Of a DNA stretch of 64,000 bases, positions 808 to 21,801 are shown piece after piece (position 1 is the stretch's first letter; each line of letters begins with the position of its first letter). Both the position numbers and the translations under genes were made by a program. The DNA comes from Herbinix sp. (GTDB taxonomy: Bacteria > Bacillota > Clostridia > Lachnospirales > Lachnospiraceae), in assembly GCA_029238935.1 (NCBI GenBank), contig JAQZBN010000017.1:1-64000 (forward strand). The letters are read 5' to 3'. The notes beneath the pieces were generated by a model that ran no database searches, was not told the DNA's origin, and saw only the letters and a list, made by a program, of their open reading frames with translations.

Positions 808-2259
808 TTAATCCTGCGGTCTATTTGCTAAAGTAATTTTAAGATCCTTTTCTACATAACTTCCATTCTCAATCACATACACCTTAAGTGATATTTCCTT
901 GCCAGCCTGGGTGTAGGAAAGAATGTTTAACAGATCATCTACTGTTTCAATGGTTTTATCATCTAAGCCAGCGATGATATTCCCTTGAACTAAACCGGCT
1001 TTATCTGCAGGTGAGCCTGCTACCACTTCATTGATATAAATACCTTTCGGCATCTTAAAACGATCAGCATAGATATCATCTACAACTTGAGCAGTTTCAA
1101 TATTAATTCCTAAGAAACCTTGCTCCGTTTTATCCAAGGTCTTGCGGTTCATCAATTCGTTTATTAAAGGAATGGCATCCGAGATAGGGATTGAATAGCC
1201 CATACCTTCTACTTCTTCAGAGGCAAACTTGACAGAATTGATACCAATTACTTCTCCCTTAATATTAAGCAATGCTCCACCACTGTTACCTGGATTAATT
1301 GCTGCGTCGGTCTGAAGTAATGTTCTTGTAACATTATCAACAGTTACTTCTCTATCTAAAGCACTAATATATCCCACTGTAACGGATTGACCATAACCTA
1401 ATGCATTTCCGATTGCAATTGCCAGTTCACCAGCTTTTAAATCATTGGAATCCCCTAAGGTAGCAATCTTGATCGCTTTGGTAGTTTCTTCTGTTAAGGT
1501 AGTCATATCTACGGATAATATAGCAAGATCCGCATTCGCATCTGCTCCTTTTACCGTAGCTTTTGTAGTTTTTTCATCAATGAAAACAATCTCTACCTCA
1601 GATGCTCCAGCAATTACATGGTTATTGGTAACAATCAGCAACTCGGAACCATTCTGTCCGATTATAATACCGGAACCACTACCTTCCATAGGTTGACTAA
1701 AGCCATTTCCAAAGAAGTCATAATTAGTAACCGTTCCGGAGGAATTAATCGCAACAATGGAAGGCATTACCTGCTCTACTACACCGGATACATCGGTTAC
1801 TACACCGTCACTAACAGTGTCCACCGTAACTGCTTCTGTATCTTCTTCATCATTGCTTACCAATCCATTTGTAATATCCTTGATATCATTATCTACCGTT
1901 TCTTCTTTAACAGTTTTGTCCTTCTGGATATCGGAAATGTATGAATATCCTTGAAAAGCTGCACCTGCTACAATACCAAAGGCAACTGCACCTGCCGTTA
2001 ACATCATGATACCGGAAAAATTTCTTTTCTTTTTGTTTTTCTTTTTATCTCCTGACACATCCGGTGTTATATATGGATTACTGTATTGATCCTGTGTAGA
2101 AGAATATTGATAGGACATATTCTGAGTATTGGAGTATGGCTGATATCCTGCATATCCATTCTGGTCAGTCTGATTGCTCTCTGTGTTATGATTCTTATTT
2201 AAATCATTAGGGTTCTGTTGAAATTCGTTATTATTTTCGATATTATTTTCGTTATTCAT
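808..2259 (-). CDS. HtrA/DegP-family serine protease with PDZ domain
   Basis: Membrane-anchored trypsin-like protease for envelope quality control. The start is the ATG at 2259, six bases after AGGAGA; a longer frame adds 28 unsupported residues. Residues 1-80 are Asn/Gln/Tyr-rich and cytoplasmic, ending in a lysine cluster; 81-104 form one membrane segment; the protease domain follows outside. The triad is visible: His214 (TNNHVI), Asp244 (ANADLAIL) and Ser326 (NPGNSGG). A C-terminal PDZ domain (about 385-475, starting GFLGINIE) should bind unfolded C-termini. Its 483 residues and layout match the HtrA proteins of Gram-positive bacteria. It is probably monocistronic. Confidence 0.93.
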   Translation of the reverse strand: MNNENNIENNNEFQQNPNDLNKNHNTESNQTDQNGYAGYQPYSNTQNMSYQYSSTQDQYSNPYITPDVSGDKKKNKKKRNFSGIMMLTAGAVAFGIVAGAAFQGYSYISDIQKDKTVKEETVDNDIKDITNGLVSNDEEDTEAVTVDTVSDGVVTDVSGVVEQVMPSIVAINSSGTVTNYDFFGNGFSQPMEGSGSGIIIGQNGSELLIVTNNHVIAGASEVEIVFIDEKTTKATVKGADANADLAILSVDMTTLTEETTKAIKIATLGDSNDLKAGELAIAIGNALGYGQSVTVGYISALDREVTVDNVTRTLLQTDAAINPGNSGGALLNIKGEVIGINSVKFASEEVEGMGYSIPISDAIPLINELMNRKTLDKTEQGFLGINIETAQVVDDIYADRFKMPKGIYINEVVAGSPADKAGLVQGNIIAGLDDKTIETVDDLLNILSYTQAGKEISLKVYVIENGSYVEKDLKITLANRPQD

Positions 2260-2386
2260 ATGAATTCTCCTTTCAAAAATCTTAAGTCTTATCGTTAATT
2301 TGTTTTCTTTGATAAGACTAGTGTAACAATAAATTATGTTCACTCTGTGATTAGATTTTGAAAAAATTGTGAAGAAATCGCTTCTT

Positions 2387-3523
2387 TTATCTAACAGAAA
2401 TATAACTACCTAGAATTTTCATTTCCAACGCCTCTAATTTGATGCAGTTCAAAGCATTCTTAACCCTTGGATCATTCAGACCTCCTTCAATATCCACAAA
2501 GAAGCGATATTCAAAAGCTTTTCCTGAGATCGGTCTGGATTCTATCCGTGTCATATTTAAATTATTATATATAAAATGAGAAAGCATATGATACAAAGAA
2601 CCACTTTTATGTGGTAGAGCAAAGCATATACTGGTGCGTATTGAATTTCTAAAATATACTTTTTTATTGGTTATAATGATAAATCGAGTAGAATTATTCT
2701 GATCATTATGAATTCCCTCTTGTAGAATCTGTAAACCATAATACTCGCCCGCTCTTTTACTGGCAATGGCTGCTTTCGTCCTGTCCATTTCCTCTAGAAC
2801 TCTCTTCGCACTTCCGGCTGTACTTCCGCTTTCCATCTGTTTCATATACGGATGCTTTTTCAAATATTCAGAACATTGCAATAGTCCCTGACGATGAGAA
2901 TACACCGTAGTAATATCATCTGCTTTCGAACCCGGAAGACCTAATAAATTATGTTCTATTTTTATTACATGTTCTCCAATAATATAATTATCATACTCAG
3001 CCAACAAATCGAAGATATCGGTTAATGTACCGGTGGAAGAGTTTTCAATGGGCAAAACTCCATAATCTGCCTGACCTTCTTTGATTGCCTGCATAACATC
3101 CTGAAAGGTTCCCATAGGTTTACTATTAACGCTTCCAGAAAAAAATTCAAGCATGGCCTGTTCGGTATAGGATCCTATTTCTCCATAAAATACCACACTG
3201 GTATCCTGACTTATCTTCAATTCTTCCATTACATCAAAGCCGAGATGATCATATGAATCCAGCATTGTATATTGTAATCGTCGGCTCATTGACATAATTT
3301 GTGTAAATAAATCCGAAATTGCTCTCTTATTAAAATCATCCTTCGTCATTGCTTGAAGTGCTTCTAACTTCTCTTCTTCTCTTGCAGGATCATAGATTGC
3401 CTTTCCAACACTTATTTTGTATTCAGCTACATCCTTTGCAATCTGCATCCGATATTCAAAAAGTTCCAATAGCTTTTGATCCACTTCATCTATTTTTCTT
3501 CTACTCTCTTGTAAATCTATCAT
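2387..3523 (-). CDS. pheA: Bifunctional chorismate mutase / prephenate dehydratase
   Basis: Makes phenylpyruvate from chorismate by way of prephenate in phenylalanine synthesis. Three domains are seen: an AroQ-type chorismate mutase helix bundle (residues 1-80, beginning DLQESRRKIDEVDQKLLELF), a prephenate dehydratase (about 110-285, with ENSSTGTLTDIF and the catalytic-type STRF motif) and a C-terminal ACT domain (about 295-375, with SGSLYHML and ESRP), which in this family binds phenylalanine for feedback inhibition. The reading frame extends to a TTG three codons earlier, but the AAGGTGG ribosome binding site is nine bases before the ATG at 3523 and touches the TTG, so the ATG is chosen. 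378 residues is the usual length. Confidence 0.95.
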   Translation of the reverse strand: MIDLQESRRKIDEVDQKLLELFEYRMQIAKDVAEYKISVGKAIYDPAREEEKLEALQAMTKDDFNKRAISDLFTQIMSMSRRLQYTMLDSYDHLGFDVMEELKISQDTSVVFYGEIGSYTEQAMLEFFSGSVNSKPMGTFQDVMQAIKEGQADYGVLPIENSSTGTLTDIFDLLAEYDNYIIGEHVIKIEHNLLGLPGSKADDITTVYSHRQGLLQCSEYLKKHPYMKQMESGSTAGSAKRVLEEMDRTKAAIASKRAGEYYGLQILQEGIHNDQNNSTRFIIITNKKVYFRNSIRTSICFALPHKSGSLYHMLSHFIYNNLNMTRIESRPISGKAFEYRFFVDIEGGLNDPRVKNALNCIKLEALEMKILGSYISVR

Positions 3524-16403: not shown

Positions 16404-16517
16404 CTATACCTTGTCATCCATTGTTTTAACTACTCTGCCATTATTGAAACATTCATAAATAGATCCGCTTCTATTTTTGTTTCTTAATACATCGGCACTT
16501 GTTCCTTCACTGATCAA
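16404..16517 (-). CDS. Possible 37-residue protein overlapping the sigK 3' end
   Basis: A TTG-initiated frame overlaps the last codons of the recombinase-SigK gene in the +1 frame. AAGGGAG lies only four bases before the TTG. The product would be basic and polar (SADVLRNKNRSGSIYECFNN, then GRVVKTMDDKV) without membrane segments. I do not recognise it. Its codon use looks natural, but it is short and the start is weak, so it may be chance. Confidence 0.25.
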   Translation of the reverse strand: MISEGTSADVLRNKNRSGSIYECFNNGRVVKTMDDKV

Positions 16518-16866
16518 AACACTCCCTTAATTTCTTCAGGGCTTTTTTTTCGATCCGGCTGACATAGCTTCTGGAGATCCCAAGTTTATTAGCGATTTCC
16601 CGCTGTGTAACCTCTTTTCTGTTCTTCAAGCCATAACGGAGACATATGATTTCTTTTTCTCTATCCGTCAACACTTTTCCGATTATGCTATAGAGTTTCT
16701 TTATATCATCTTCCAGCACAATATTTTCTACAATATCTACTTCTGCTTCCTCAATGATATCTAACAAATTAATCTCGTTGCCTTCCCGATCGGATCCTAT
16801 CGGTTCATACAAATACACTTCTTTGGCCAGTCGTTTGCCACTTCTGAGCATCATTAAAAGCTCATT
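16507..16866 (-). other. sigK: sigK 3' fragment (sigma region 3/4 side)
   Basis: Codons for 119 residues that match the C-terminal half of sporulation sigma K: EVYLYEPIGSDREGNEINLL, then VLTDREKEIICLRYGL and the region 4.2 helix-turn-helix for -35 recognition. It begins at the Asn-Glu codons AAT GAG (16866-16861). In B. subtilis the skin crossover core is AATGA at the equivalent Glu-Asn-Glu codons, so the fragment starts where a skin element is expected to be inserted. It ends at the shared stop at 16507. Confidence 0.88.
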
Positions 16867-18501
16867 GTCGCTGTGAATCAAAAAAAGATGAATATCTTTA
16901 CCATCCCAAACCACCTTAGAAACAATCGATCGGATAGCATTTCGTTTTTGTTCAACCGTTGCTTTTGTTAAATGATAGCCAAAGTCTAATAATGATCGCT
17001 TTACTCTATCAAATTCCTCAATCGTAAGCGCTACCTCGGAAGCCAAGTCTTCTGTTTCTTTTAAGTGTTCTCTTAATCGCTCACCTATGTAATGACATTC
17101 GTCTATTTGCTTCATGATATATTGCTGCGCGGTTTGACCGGCTGCAAAAGCTAATGCATTCACCAGAGCATTCATCTCTCTCTCATTCTCTTTTAATAAC
17201 CTCTTTAATCGATCTTGATCAGATGCTTCATCCTTTTTGGATGCACTAATTGTTTTGTACAATAGCTCCATTCGTTTCAAAAAATATGAATCATCCATGG
17301 ATAGTTTTTTTATTTCATCGCATATAGTGTGATCAATCATATTACCGTTCAAGTTCTTCATATTGCAGCATTCAGATTTGCTCTTTTCTTTTCTATAACA
17401 CAAATATTCATAGATCCGTTCTCCTTGAACAGTCGATCTTCTGGTTAATTTCGGACGCATGAATTCCCCACAATTACCACAAATCATTATTCCAGATAAA
17501 AGGGCTACATTGCTTCTAGGTTTTTTATATGCTTTTGATTGATTTATGTTAAGGAGCTTCTGTACCTTTACCCAATCTCGTCCAGAGATTAAACCTTCAT
17601 GTTTTCCTACCGAAACGATCCATTCCTCCATAGCTCGTGCTTTGTGAGCAAGTCCATCCTTTTGCTGAGTCCTATTATATACCATCAAGCCGTGGTAACC
17701 GTCGAATTCTTTCTTATCAGAAAACAAATTCATCTTATGATCGATTATGTAGGTATAAGAATCCTCATCCGCTTTCGCATAAACAGGATTCTCTAGAATG
17801 CTTTTAATTGAAAACCGTGTAAAGTACTTATTATTTTTCGTTTTATAATTATTTTGAATTAAATACGCATCTGTTTGAGTCAGTGATCCGGTATCCAAGT
17901 ATTTCTCATAAATTGTCCTTATCACCTGGGCTTCTTCCGGAACAATCTTTAATTTACACGCTTTTTTTATCTTTCCATCCATGGATACTTTTTGAATGCT
18001 TTCACTGGTATAACCTGTAGGAGTGGTGCCGCCTAACCATCTCCCTGTTTTAGACAGTTCATACATGTTATCTCTTATTCGCTCTGCTATAGTTTCTCTT
18101 TCTAGCTGGGCAAATACGGATGAAATGTACATCATAGCTCGCCCGATGGGATTTGATGTGTCAAACTTCTCTTTGATTGATACAAAGTCAACACCCAATC
18201 GATGCAGCTCTTCAATCAGATTAGCAAAATCACTGACATTACGACTGATCCGATCCAGCCTATAACATATAAGAACTGTAAATATCTTTTTTTTTGCATC
18301 CTGTAGCATCTTCTTTAACTGTGGACGAGATGTGTTCTTACCGGAATAGCCTTCATCTTCATAAATAAAAATCTCAATAGGACCATCGTCCCCATAGTTA
18401 TTTTCAATATACTGTTTACAGAGCTCAATTTGGTTTTCTATACTCTCACCTTTACCGGTAAACTTTGATTTCCGTGAATAGATCGCTATATTTCTTGCCA
18501 T
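16507..18501 (-). CDS. Large serine recombinase (SpoIVCA-like) fused in frame to the C-terminal part of SigK
   Basis: 664 residues. Residues 1-545 are a large serine recombinase: nucleophile Ser9 in IAIYSRKS, the arginines of CYRLDRISRN (about 79-88), SSVFAQLERETIAERI, a recombinase domain (about 160-290), a zinc ribbon (Cys341, Cys344, Cys368, Cys378/379), a coiled coil (about 425-510) and the usual end VVWDGKDIHLFL. Without a stop, residues 546-664 continue as SigK from NELLMMLRSGKRLAKEVYLY through region 4 with the helix-turn-helix TQREIANKLGISRSYVSRIE. SpoIVCA of B. subtilis excises the skin element from sigK in the mother cell. GGAGG precedes the ATG by seven bases. Before excision the sigma part would be made only as a recombinase tail. 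Confidence 0.93.
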   Translation of the reverse strand: MARNIAIYSRKSKFTGKGESIENQIELCKQYIENNYGDDGPIEIFIYEDEGYSGKNTSRPQLKKMLQDAKKKIFTVLICYRLDRISRNVSDFANLIEELHRLGVDFVSIKEKFDTSNPIGRAMMYISSVFAQLERETIAERIRDNMYELSKTGRWLGGTTPTGYTSESIQKVSMDGKIKKACKLKIVPEEAQVIRTIYEKYLDTGSLTQTDAYLIQNNYKTKNNKYFTRFSIKSILENPVYAKADEDSYTYIIDHKMNLFSDKKEFDGYHGLMVYNRTQQKDGLAHKARAMEEWIVSVGKHEGLISGRDWVKVQKLLNINQSKAYKKPRSNVALLSGIMICGNCGEFMRPKLTRRSTVQGERIYEYLCYRKEKSKSECCNMKNLNGNMIDHTICDEIKKLSMDDSYFLKRMELLYKTISASKKDEASDQDRLKRLLKENEREMNALVNALAFAAGQTAQQYIMKQIDECHYIGERLREHLKETEDLASEVALTIEEFDRVKRSLLDFGYHLTKATVEQKRNAIRSIVSKVVWDGKDIHLFLIHSDNELLMMLRSGKRLAKEVYLYEPIGSDREGNEINLLDIIEEAEVDIVENIVLEDDIKKLYSIIGKVLTDREKEIICLRYGLKNRKEVTQREIANKLGISRSYVSRIEKKALKKLRECFDQ

Positions 18502-18550
18502 ATAAATACCTCCGCAGTCAATGAATGAATCCTATTACAGCTTATATCAT

Positions 18551-18560
18551 ATTTGTCGTT
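18551..18560 (-). promoter_or_regulatory. Possible SpoIIID-like site upstream of the recombinase
   Basis: On the minus strand AACGACAAAT matches 9 of 10 positions of the SpoIIID consensus WWRRACARNY and lies about 50 bases before the recombinase start. SpoIIID controls the mother-cell recombinase and sigK in B. subtilis. One degenerate match in AT-rich DNA is weak evidence. Confidence 0.25.
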
Positions 18561-18765
18561 CATCTCTTTTCCATATAAGGTATTCGCTTTCTTATCCATA
18601 TAGATTAAATTCCGCTTGTATTTCTAGATAGAATATAATGATCCCTATTATTCCAATCAAGGTTATATACGCAATTTAACCCGGTTTATTTACTATTATT
18701 TTACAAATATTTAACCATAACTGCCTTTTTAACAGTGAAGCTAAATGATAGGATATTATTGTAAA

Positions 18766-18805
18766 GTGAAATCATAATAGATTTGTTGATTGAATCTAAT
18801 TTCAC
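18766..18805. promoter_or_regulatory. Inverted repeat upstream of the small membrane protein gene
   Basis: Outer arms GTGAAAT (18766-18772) and ATTTCAC (18799-18805) enclose inner arms AGATT and AATCT around a nine-base loop. It ends 13 bases before the AAAGGAGG of the 43-residue gene, so it could be an operator or a leader hairpin controlling that gene. Confidence 0.45.
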
Positions 18806-18830
18806 CTAAAATAAAGGAGGAGTGAGACAA

Positions 18831-18962
18831 ATGTTAATAAAATATATCGTATTACTACTCTTATGGTTGGTTTTCCTTGGTTATGCTTATCGGCTTCAAC
18901 AAAAAAGAAAGGAAAAACACTTCATAAAATCCAATCTTTGGTTTACAAAAATCCTTAGATAG
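18831..18962 (+). CDS. Small membrane protein of 43 residues, unknown
   Basis: Too short for usual gene calling, but it has a very strong AAAGGAGG ribosome binding site ten bases before its ATG. The product has one N-terminal membrane helix (about residues 4-20, rich in Leu/Val/Trp) followed by a basic tail RLQQKRKEKH and a final NLWFTKILR, predicting a single-pass protein with the tail in the cytoplasm. I do not recognise the family. It lies inside the sigK element, divergent from the recombinase and convergent with the cyclic-di-GMP gene. Confidence 0.65.
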   Translation: MLIKYIVLLLLWLVFLGYAYRLQQKRKEKHFIKSNLWFTKILR

Positions 18963-18987
18963 AAAATACTTCTTAGAAATATTTAAA

Positions 18988-19025
18988 CCGGTATGCTTCT
19001 ATTGAATCATACCGGCTTCATTCTA
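18988..19025. terminator. Hairpin between convergent small gene and cyclic-di-GMP gene
   Basis: CCGGTATG (18988-18995) pairs with CATACCGG (19008-19015) around a 12-base loop, followed on the plus strand by CTTCATTCTA. It probably ends the small membrane protein transcript and may also act on the opposite strand. Confidence 0.55.
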
Positions 19026-19073
19026 TAGATTATTATAGCCCTACGTTTACTTCTTTACTATACCTACTCTAAC

Positions 19074-20828
19074 TCATGATGTTCCTAAAAACATCATGAG
19101 CTTTTTTTGTTTCGCTTCTCTTTTTTTGATAGCCAGAAGCTCTGTAAGCTCATAGATATCAAGAAAGCTTTGTAAACTATTATTGATAACAACAGATGTT
19201 ATGGAAAGCAGAGGGTATTGTTCCATTTCTCCTCTTCGATTCTTTGAGAAGATATAACCCCTTTCAATATCACATTGACTATAATATTTTTTTATCTTTT
19301 GCTCAAACTGATACTGGATTTCTACAAAATATTGTTCCGTTACGAGGTCATAAATGATAACTACAAAATCATCACCTCCGATATGTCCAATGAAGTGATC
19401 ATGAGGTATTGTATTTTTAAGGATATTAGCCAACAATTGAATTACCAGATCACCATGTTCAAACCCATATACATCATTATAAGCTTTAAAATTATCAATA
19501 TCTATATAGGCTACACTATAGTCTCTATTCCCATTCACACAGTATTTTAAATTATGATCTACCATAAGATTTCCGGGAAGACCGGACAAAGGATTTTGAT
19601 GCTTAGCATTATCCACTTCAATTTCAGCAGCTTTCTGTAGCAGATCTTTAATTGTTACGGTGCCGATATACTTTCCATTCTCTGTGACAATGATAAAATC
19701 ATATAGCTTATCATTTGGTCGGGACATAGCAAGATAGGAAACCATATTGATTGGTGTTTGGGAATCCACTGAGAGAAATGTTTGATCCATGAGTTCAGAT
19801 ATCGGCTTATTCTGGTACAGCGAATAACCATAATTTCCACTCATTTTTAATGCTAATTTCTCATATGTAACAATTCCTAGGGGAACTTCATTTTCAACAA
19901 TACACAATCCAAAGAAATTGGGGTTCTGTTTAAAAATATTAAAGACATATTTCGCAGTTACCTTAGAAGAAACGATTCCCGTATAAGTACAAAGATTTTT
20001 TATGTTGATATTTTTCACATTGTCTATGGGTATTTGTTTGCTTTTTTGATTCGTAGATAAGATTACCTGAATTACTTCCTCCTTGATTTCAATAACCTCG
20101 GTAAAAGGTTTTTGTATAAAATAACCTTGCCCATATTGTACTCCAAGGTGTATTAAGGTCTTTAATTCCTCGCAGGTTTCAATTCCCTCAGCGATCAAAT
20201 TAATATGGGAGGCATTTGATAGTTCAACCATTCCCTTAACCAGCGCATATTTTAGACTATCCGCATGAATACCACGTATTAATTTCATATCTAGCTTTAT
20301 GTAATTGGGATTGATCTCACTAATGAGATTTAATCCGGAATATCCTGCTCCAGCATCATCGATTGCTATTTTATAATCCTGACCTCGATAATGATCGATT
20401 GCAGATAAAAAGCCGCCCATATCCAGGATAACATTCCGTTCCGTAATTTCAAATATTACATTTTGTGGCTTAATTTGAAATTGCATCAGGAATTCTTTTG
20501 TGAAGCCTTTTTTAAAATTCTCATCATGCATGATATTAGGGTTAACATTGAGAAATAACATTTTATTATATGGTGGTATCATAAATTTATATGCAGCTTC
20601 CAAGGCGGTAGTTCTGCATAATAGCTCTAAATCCCAAATACGATTAAATTCCGCTGCTATAGTAAATAGCATCTCCGGATTTTTTATTACACTTTCGCCA
20701 GTAATTCTACTCAATGCCTCATGTCCTAATATGCTACCATCCTTTAATGATATAATGGGTTGAAAGACTGTCTTTATCTGTTTATTATGGATGATACTAT
20801 CTACTGCTTCTTTTAATCTATCTCTCAT
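19074..20828 (-). CDS. EAL-CBS-GGDEF cyclic-di-GMP turnover protein
   Basis: 584 residues. The EAL phosphodiesterase domain (about 15-245) keeps the expected catalytic set: Glu37 of GHEALSR, Asn94 in LNVNP, Glu127 in FEITER, Asp157-Asp158 in IDDAGAGYS, Lys178, Glu214 in AEGIET and Gln234. A pair of CBS domains (about 275-400) may sense adenine nucleotides. The GGDEF domain (about 410-545) reads GGDDF at 484-488, an allowed active form, and has no RxxD product-inhibition site. Lacking membrane segments, it should be cytosolic. It can plausibly break and make cyclic di-GMP. It follows the 46-residue acidic gene by 33 bases, likely one transcript. Its position inside a sigK element is unusual. 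Confidence 0.93.
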   Translation of the reverse strand: MRDRLKEAVDSIIHNKQIKTVFQPIISLKDGSILGHEALSRITGESVIKNPEMLFTIAAEFNRIWDLELLCRTTALEAAYKFMIPPYNKMLFLNVNPNIMHDENFKKGFTKEFLMQFQIKPQNVIFEITERNVILDMGGFLSAIDHYRGQDYKIAIDDAGAGYSGLNLISEINPNYIKLDMKLIRGIHADSLKYALVKGMVELSNASHINLIAEGIETCEELKTLIHLGVQYGQGYFIQKPFTEVIEIKEEVIQVILSTNQKSKQIPIDNVKNINIKNLCTYTGIVSSKVTAKYVFNIFKQNPNFFGLCIVENEVPLGIVTYEKLALKMSGNYGYSLYQNKPISELMDQTFLSVDSQTPINMVSYLAMSRPNDKLYDFIIVTENGKYIGTVTIKDLLQKAAEIEVDNAKHQNPLSGLPGNLMVDHNLKYCVNGNRDYSVAYIDIDNFKAYNDVYGFEHGDLVIQLLANILKNTIPHDHFIGHIGGDDFVVIIYDLVTEQYFVEIQYQFEQKIKKYYSQCDIERGYIFSKNRRGEMEQYPLLSITSVVINNSLQSFLDIYELTELLAIKKREAKQKKLMMFLGTS

Positions 20829-20861
20829 AGTCCGCCTCTTTTGTTTTATCAGTTGTTTTTC

Positions 20862-21002
20862 TCATTCTTTGTTATCAAACTCTTCCATTAAGATATAATC
20901 CTCATCATCTAAATCATCTATGTCATCCAAAAAATCATCAATGCCATCGAAAAAATCAAGTATAGTCTTATTATTCATAAAACCCTTTAATAATTTCTCC
21001 AC
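20862..21002 (-). CDS. Small acidic protein of 46 residues, unknown
   Basis: GTG start with AAGGAGG seven bases upstream. After a short basic start (EKLLKGFMNNK) the chain becomes a run of Asp-rich repeats (FFDGIDDFLDDIDDLDDEDY), giving about 18 acidic residues and no Cys or membrane segment. It lies directly upstream of the cyclic-di-GMP gene. The family is not recognised; acidic repeats of this kind can bind cations or a basic partner, but that is inference. Confidence 0.55.
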   Translation of the reverse strand: MEKLLKGFMNNKTILDFFDGIDDFLDDIDDLDDEDYILMEEFDNKE

Positions 21003-21043
21003 ACTATAACCTCCTTATTGAAATCATGAATGCCCAGTTTGCT

Positions 21044-21049
21044 ATTATA
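21044..21049 (-). promoter_or_regulatory. Candidate -10 box for the acidic protein / cyclic-di-GMP operon
   Basis: TATAAT on the minus strand lies about 42 bases before the GTG start at 21002. No good TTGACA is seen at the usual spacing (TTATAA or TATAAA only), which suggests a need for an activator; the tandem repeats at 21093-21190 sit just upstream. Confidence 0.4.
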
Positions 21050-21092
21050 CTGTTATCTATCATAACTTTATAATGTAAAATTGGTAATCCAT

Positions 21093-21197
21093 CTATTGTA
21101 AAGAATTTGTTAAATTCTATTGTAAAGCATTTGTTAATTTCTATTGTAAAGCATTTGTTAATTTCTATTGTAGAGCATTTTAAATTCTATTGTTAAT
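21093..21197. repeat. 24-bp direct tandem repeats, about 4.5 copies
   Basis: Unit CTATTGTAAAGCATTTGTTAATTT. Copies at 21093-21116 (two differences), 21117-21140 and 21141-21164 (identical), 21165-21186 (shortened by two bases) and a partial copy from 21187. There are no unique spacers, so it is not CRISPR. It lies between the divergent acidic-protein operon and the 61-residue gene, and resembles an array of protein-binding sites or iterons. Confidence 0.9.
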
Positions 21198-21274
21198 ACA
21201 TAAAAAACTAATAATGGACATTCACAAAAGCATAGGTTAATACTATAGGAATAGCATCTAAAAGGAGCATCTAT

Positions 21275-21460
21275 ATGGATATAATCGTTCACTATCCAAA
21301 CTCCAAGATAAATACAAATGATTTAGAAAGGATAGTTGCAATGGTACATGCCGACCTCATCGCCAGTTACATTCAAACTTTACCTTATTCGTTGGATATG
21401 AAATGTGCTCTCATTCAATCCGTTTGTGAAGAACTCCATAAAAAAAGAGAATACAAATAA
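21275..21460 (+). CDS. Small soluble protein of 61 residues, unknown
   Basis: AAAGGAGC lies seven bases before the ATG. The protein appears to be an alpha/beta start (MDIIVHYPNSKINTNDLERI) followed by two helices, with two Cys residues (CALIQSVCEE) and a basic end. No membrane segment. I cannot assign a family; it might be a regulator or excision factor of the element, which is inference from location only. It lies just inside the element's right end, convergent with the sigK 5' fragment. Confidence 0.6.
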   Translation: MDIIVHYPNSKINTNDLERIVAMVHADLIASYIQTLPYSLDMKCALIQSVCEELHKKREYK

Positions 21461-21462
21461 GC

Positions 21463-21494
21463 AAAAAAAATATCCTCATTTTCAGAGGATATTT
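21463..21494 (-). terminator. Terminator directly after the sigK 5' fragment
   Basis: AAATATCCTC (21468-21477) pairs with GAGGATATTT (21485-21494) around seven bases; on the minus strand it runs into eight U residues. It starts at the base after the 5' fragment's stop codon, so before excision the sigK transcript would end here. Read on the plus strand it can also end the 61-residue gene. Confidence 0.88.
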
Positions 21495-21737
21495 CTATAT
21501 CATTACACGATTCGTATCATGAACAGAATAAAGTATAATCAGATTACTTATCTGCGCCACTAAGATAGTATTGCATTCTGTTTCCTTGTCAATCATATTA
21601 TACTTTTTCACAATATGAGCAACCAGTCTGAGATTATGTTCTATCAGTTTATCTCTTGCTTCTTTGTCGCCTTCCTTACACCTTCGTAGGTACTCCGCTT
21701 CTTCCTTGGTGCTTAACGGTTTGGGAAAGGATTTCAC
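21495..21737 (-). pseudogene. sigK: sigK 5' fragment (SigK N-terminus, interrupted)
   Basis: Eighty codons. The first 46-54 residues are unmistakably SigK: FPKPLSTKEEAEYLRR, then LIEHNLRLVAHIVKKY, which is region 1.2 into 2.1. After about residue 54 (IDKETE) the sequence leaves the family and stops. The GTG at 21737 is the likely start since GAGGTG lies nine bases before it; thus no pro-sequence of the Bacillus kind is present, as in C. difficile. The position after the U32 gene is the conserved clostridial sigK location. The 3' fragment resumes at 16866, but about 35 residues (DLISIGTIGL-type region 2.2-2.4) are in neither fragment. Confidence 0.85.
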
Positions 21738-21773
21738 GATGATAAGCACCTCATTACTTTAATGTTTCGTTAT

Positions 21774-21801
21774 TAGTTTATGTGTATTATTGACATAAAG
21801 T
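21774..21801 (-). promoter_or_regulatory. Mother-cell (SigE/SigK-type) promoter of sigK
   Basis: On the minus strand CATAAACTA (21782-21774) fits the sigma-K -10 consensus CATANNNTA exactly, with AC (21801-21800) 17 bases upstream as the -35. It ends 36 bases before the GTG start. Mother-cell sigma-E and sigma-K share such -10 elements, so the type is inferred. Confidence 0.6.

Follow-up and report, generated by a model that had tools for sequence, protein, structure and literature searches.

The sigma factor gene sigK of Herbinix sp. (assembly GCA_029238935.1) is interrupted within positions 1 to 64,000 of contig JAQZBN010000017.1, a stretch termed the window in what follows, by an element of ∼4.7 kb whose large serine recombinase is read without a stop into the 3′ part of sigK. 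An earlier note made from the sequence had taken this fusion for a built-in link between recombinase supply and the unexcised state. We favor another reading, with a probability of roughly 0.58: the element is a compact sigK-intervening one that has been damaged, and a deletion left the fusion behind as a scar. The undamaged relatives quite probably make up a widespread switch of Clostridia and their kin, namely compact non-prophage sigK elements that share one recombinase clade and inverted attachment arms, encode a directionality-factor family controlled in the sigmaE/SpoIIID manner, carry cargo that can be exchanged, and have a recombinase that mostly borrows its stop codon from the crossover core; the window would carry a broken copy of it.

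Damage at both junctions as assembled

Both sigK parts lie on the minus strand with the element between them (Table 1), and matches to TIGR02846 and to recombinase domains bear out the earlier note on this arrangement. The fused open reading frame (ORF; 664 codons, 16507-18501, minus strand) has Resolvase, Recombinase and Zn-ribbon domains followed by a Sigma70_r4 match covering profile positions 4-50 of 50. Its recombinase is of the type found in other sigK elements and is kin to theirs, and the locus has the position of a skin-type element, between the two sigK parts, so the skin-type origin proposed in the note stands. The encoded SigK seems to lack a pro-sequence, because the TIGR02846 match opens only at position 24.

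What the note missed is that DNA is absent at each junction, 104 bp of sigK at the left and an attachment arm at the right. TIGR02846 positions 77-109 are covered by neither SigK part: by comparison with four intact relatives, each with 104 bp here, the window lacks all of sigK from the KETE codons to the core AATG, which amounts to some 34 codons in sigma region 2. In no other of the 24 two-sided elements does the sigK 5′ part end before the core. Six-frame searches of the assembly (5.37 Mb in 157 contigs, 95.06% complete, 8.08% contamination) found neither a copy of the missing segment as sigK nor another complete sigK. The segment does match other sigma factors, at best at 78% in a 256-codon frame beside a 263-codon frame, two neighbors that we read as SigE and SigG; further matches in the assembly are weak (E 0.04 to 2).

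The left attP arm is intact. Scored against 21 other distinct left arms it is unequalled among 127,952 window positions, and lies well within the leave-one-out range of those arms (−26.5 to 36.6; a misplaced boundary probably explains the lowest value). On the right side the arm is absent: the score there falls below the leave-one-out scores of all 24 distinct right arms (−9.6 to 29.6), and 72% of background positions equal or exceed it. Across the window, right-arm scoring peaks at the reverse complement of the window's own left arm, which is what a dyad attP would predict. Neither a complete attL nor a complete attR is therefore present, the sigK half of the former and the element half of the latter being gone.

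Excision was expected by the note to rebuild sigK, yet joining the window flanks at the core gives ...IDKETE and an immediate stop codon, with sigK out of frame. The same join restores sigK in frame in both same-genus relatives with an element, genomes G031 and G027; made in L041 and L044, it yields LATYASRCIDNELLMMLR. With neither att site complete and the joint out of frame, the copy as assembled has no way to restore sigK, which is why we read the fusion as a scar; a recombinase requiring both arms is not expected to recombine it.

On this reading each junction of the copy is short of sequence 5′ of the core: sigK sequence in the case of attL, the right attP arm in that of attR. The attR-side loss would have removed the end of the recombinase frame as well, and recombinase and sigK 3′ part would have come to share a frame by chance. 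The two losses, the failed joint and the family are shown here; that the genome itself has the lesion, and that cutting by the recombinase at the core preceded it, we infer. The note's statement that the recombinase has lost its own stop holds as to the open frame into SigK, but relatives usually take their stop from an AATGA core, and instead of a simple stop loss a deletion brought the ORF into the sigK frame. Two more detailed accounts of the joint were dropped: CGAC before the window core is not kept as a residue of uninterrupted sigK, since related recombinases (L044, L062) have GSD-like ends, and if the KETD codons had served as a pseudo-site for a second crossover, a shared dinucleotide would not have given the extra A seen in the joint.

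Table 1. Features of the interrupted sigK locus in window coordinates
Feature	Position	Strand	Details
sigK 3′ part	16507..16866	−	opens at core AATGAG, in frame behind recombinase
SigK C-part profile match	16516-16869	−	TIGR02846 positions 110-226, E 1.1e-42
Place of right attP arm, arm absent	16867..16890	−	consensus AAGAGCCGTTAGGTGAGGATAGCA; score −31.8
Large serine recombinase	16867..18501	−	545 codons up to joint
EAL-CBS-GGDEF cargo gene	19074-20828	−	cyclic di-GMP turnover type
Small acidic ORF	20862..21002	−	46 aa; no Pfam match
24-bp repeat	21092..21193	.	4.3 copies, between the two divergent genes
GGACA-N10-CATA motif	21216..21239	+	59 nt before small gene
Conserved small-protein gene	21275..21460	+	61 residues; candidate recombination directionality factor
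ORF of sigK 5′ part	21495-21749	−	sigK 5′ part, then 26 element-encoded codons
Left attP arm, intact	21554..21577	−	AATGCAATACTATCTTAGTGGCGC; score 24.9
SigK N-part profile match	21576-21734	−	TIGR02846 positions 24-76, E 1.5e-19
sigK 5′ part	21576..21749	−	ends ...NMIDKETE; start ∼21749/21737
Left junction	21577..21578	−	site of 104-bp sigK loss, ending at core AATG

The 24-bp repeat separates the small-protein gene from the cargo genes, and possibly holds operator sites.

A family of compact sigK elements

GTDB contigs were scanned with an alignment of four sigK-element recombinases as query, and the best 80 of at least 509 relative-encoding stretches were fetched. At 72 of these 80 a sigK 3′ part lies downstream of the recombinase on the same strand; because the loci were picked by likeness to sigK-element recombinases, this fraction describes the clade and not Clostridia in general. 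A sigK query finds some sigK-like match at 77. The 24 two-sided elements (L041 and L057 being one locus) measure 2,654 to 11,508 bp, the window's being the seventh smallest, and seven further elements measure about 3.5 to 10.2 kb (L160 and L157 repeat loci L098 and L055). Elements were seen in records labelled Lachnospiraceae, Oscillospiraceae/Ruminococcaceae, Defluviitaleaceae, Sporomusa and Holdemania; a search for relatives of the fusion on viral contigs found none. The left-arm consensus AATGCTATCCTATCATAACGGCTC (21 distinct arms) and the right-arm consensus AAGAGCCGTTAGGTGAGGATAGCA (24 distinct arms from 29 loci caught by a strict pattern among 91) are in good part inverted copies of each other.

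Frames were compared in 84 recombinase/sigK-3′ pairs from 92 loci, the 80 and 12 others; 82 pairs are distinct around the core, L092/L093 and L098/L160 coinciding there. The recombinase stops inside the AATGA core in 57 and before the core in nine. In 17 its frame passes through the core but out of the sigK frame, and 16 of these have AACGA in place of AATGA (L153, L154, L059, L063, L071 and 11 others), a difference that lets the recombinase continue into sigK in another frame. Only the window's recombinase is in the sigK frame, running to the SigK end. Recombinase frames reaching into attR are thus usual, and an in-frame fusion is not; the search that the note had called for, for other genomes with a recombinase-SigK fusion, brought no second case among the 84. 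We also considered that excision might always lengthen the recombinase by removing its stop, and rejected this, as five of 17 circles keep the stop at the same place (two more are unreadable, their boundary being misplaced).

Some single loci differ from the common layout. In L054 a truncated recombinase (2121-3095, 324 residues) runs straight onto an intact-looking right arm. The sigK 3′ part of L111 is spread over two frames by an apparent frameshift, with the recombinase out of the sigK frame, and L114, labelled Faecalibacterium prausnitzii, has a recombinase before a sigK-like 3′ part that is 34% identical. Judged by ORF lists, cargo elsewhere seems to include transporters, a chemotaxis-type receptor and an RNase J-like protein; L115 has a Pfam hit to a cytochrome b5 domain.

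A family of small proteins, 55-74 residues long (122 in a single ORF call), occurs in 23 of the 24 two-sided elements, the exception being L054. Within the genus it is found in three of 34 genomes, the same three whose sigK holds an element, and within the taxonomic family in 14 of 397, window included. One of the 13 others, G057, has an interrupted sigK. Of the remaining 12, examined with their neighboring sequence, seven have a recombinase together with both sigK parts (G235, G227, G100, G205, G353, G066 and G250), two only the 5′ part within the stretch (G255 and G065), and three no sigK part within the stretch (G312, G157 and G196). The protein has no convincing match in Pfam, PHROGs or PDB. 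It is a candidate recombination directionality factor (RDF).

The motif GGACA-N8-13-CATA precedes 16 of 22 small genes where shuffles predict 0.13, a contrast to be read with the motif having been chosen by eye from these same sequences, some of them close kin. When the elements are tiled, 25 of 2,058 tiles contain it; before the small genes it lies 50-68 nt ahead of the start used in 15 cases and 149 nt ahead in one. The motif looks like a SpoIIID box followed by a sigmaE −10 element. A sigmaE matrix gives, alone, a mean z of 2.2 before small genes, with several values near zero (L041, −0.1; L051, 0.5).

Working relatives most likely act as the C. difficile skin does. The recombinase would wait until the mother cell, under sigmaE and SpoIIID, supplies the small directionality factor that lets it recombine attL with attR at the AATG core; the element would then leave as a circle, with sigK rejoined.

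The genus set of 34 genomes, window included, was searched for sigK 3′ parts in translations at E 1e-25 together with a 5′ search. The 3′ part is found in 28, and sigK is intact in 24. The G033 gene, at the end of a contig, is undamaged up to and including the core. sigK is interrupted in three: the window genome (G000), G027 and G031. The G026 gene, tried as a second insertion site, instead has an internal frameshifting deletion (L042, about 3300-3450), either real or an assembly fault. Five genomes give no sigK-level match at these cut-offs. Two of them are only 61% and 78% complete; G014, G029 and G032 have neither a 5′ nor a 3′ match though 93-98% complete, and sigK may have been lost in parts of the genus. 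In G031 and G027, with elements of 7.2 and 5.5 kb, the 5′ part ends ...LATYASRCIDN and the 3′ part opens ...IANELLMM. The window recombinase is 66% identical to that of the G031 sigK element and 53-54% to that of G027. A second recombinase of G031 (L053, contig C46), 41% identical to the window's, has no sigK part found nearby.

Scar, assembly fault or functional fusion

Signs of decay at such loci are seen elsewhere, which supports the reading of the window copy as damaged: L054 combines a truncated recombinase with loss of the small protein, G026 has its frameshifting deletion, and five of 34 genus genomes, two of them rather incomplete, yield no sigK-level 5′ or 3′ match at the cut-offs used. 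Several points weigh on the other side. Both sigK parts are still under strong purifying selection, the median ratio of nonsynonymous to synonymous differences (pN/pS) to the window being 0.085 for the C-part and 0.061 for the N-part, beside 0.099 and 0.078 among relatives; either the decay is therefore recent or the assembly is wrong. The case rests on one assembly, and an assembler breaking at a partly excised site would also give breakpoints at the core, which fit failed recombination and a branching assembly graph alike.

The last point leads to the only alternative of some weight, a tentative but serious one: the genome may carry an ordinary compact element, the 104 bp and right arm having been lost where contigs were joined at a part-excised site. 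An intact copy would then be expected with a left junction ...LATYASRCID-AATGC... and a right arm of the type GAGGATAGC. It would account for both losses ending at the crossover core, where the graph would branch, and for selection on the sigK parts that is not visibly relaxed; the contamination of the assembly, and a sigK 5′ part that reaches the core in the other 23 two-sided elements, point the same way. The losses are unequal, however, 104 bp at one side and an estimated few tens of bases at the other, the lost 104 bp were found on no other contig, and broken elements or sigK genes exist elsewhere (L054 and G026, though the latter may be an artefact too).

We consider it very improbable that the window holds a working small skin whose recombinase is purposely fused to the SigK 3′ part, as the earlier note proposed. 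The frame is indeed open with a nearly full-length Sigma70_r4 match, but the sigma factor lacks region 2, joining does not give sigK in frame, each att site retains only one of its halves, the right side scores below all 24 arms, and the sigK frame is used in 0 of 83 other pairs. Still more remote is the recruitment of the fusion protein for a new role, as a recombinase with a sigma region-4 tail binding RNA polymerase or promoter DNA: the open frame and conserved sigma part are what it would need, yet the 84 pairs offer no second in-frame example, and a recent sigK role explains the selection equally well. Nor is there much room for a complete sigK on sequence absent from the assembly, leaving the window locus as a spare. 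The 95.06% completeness would permit it; but none of the 34 genus genomes has two sigK 3′ matches at E 1e-25, and a U32 peptidase gene neighbors both the window locus and the sigK of G031, G027 and G003.

Relation to known sigK elements

Our results do not support reading the fusion as a switch, and if a scar it would add little. The result of value is the element family behind it, which would change the picture of sigK control. In papers on C. difficile, skin is called absent from other clostridial species apart from a C. tetani strain, or an exception (PMC3789829, PMC5025042), with C. botulinum and C. perfringens strains also named (PMC5025042), and for this reason the family matters more than the fusion. 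A search by titles and the starts of abstracts, with preprints and most subscription journals outside its reach, found no literature on compact sigK elements across Clostridia. In the 2.7 kb elements the switch comes down to the recombinase, the candidate factor, the arms and a single other ORF of some size, and so should be easy to test and perhaps usable as a tool.

The closest system is skinCd of Clostridioides difficile (recombinase CD1231, RDF CD1234), where sigK is likewise interrupted with a large serine recombinase directly upstream of its 3′ part, a small-protein gene lies inside (a likeness in gene content), and SigK is without a pro-sequence, as seems to hold for the window (PMC5025042). 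CD1234 has 72 aa and a pI of 5.5, and its gene depends on sigmaE and SpoIIID (PMC5025042); a motif of similar look is present here. skinCd holds 19 genes (PMC5025042), and differs in this from the elements of 2.7-11.5 kb measured here; the window element has fewer genes. Unlike skinCd, the window copy is without half of each att site.

The skin of B. subtilis (SpoIVCA; Skr, 64 aa) also splits sigK and brings its own recombinase and a small RDF, but it is 48 kb long and skr overlaps the 5′ end of spoIVCA (PMC6957869, PMC3416734); its SigK, moreover, has a pro-sequence (PMC5025042). Beside those 48 kb the ∼4.7 kb of the window element is much smaller, as the note said, though not exceptional in a family reaching down to 2,654 bp. 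By description, larger elements interrupt sigK in Alicyclobacillus, where the insertion is a prophage (PMC13141910), and in Bacillus cereus biovar anthracis, with a 22 kb insertion (PMC10745906). An element with a putative RDF is carried by yabG of C. botulinum (PMC10747680). The gin element of Bacillus cereus ATCC10987 is alike in being described as non-prophage or non-prophage-like and in interrupting a late sporulation gene, and differs in that this gene is gerE (PMC5595907).

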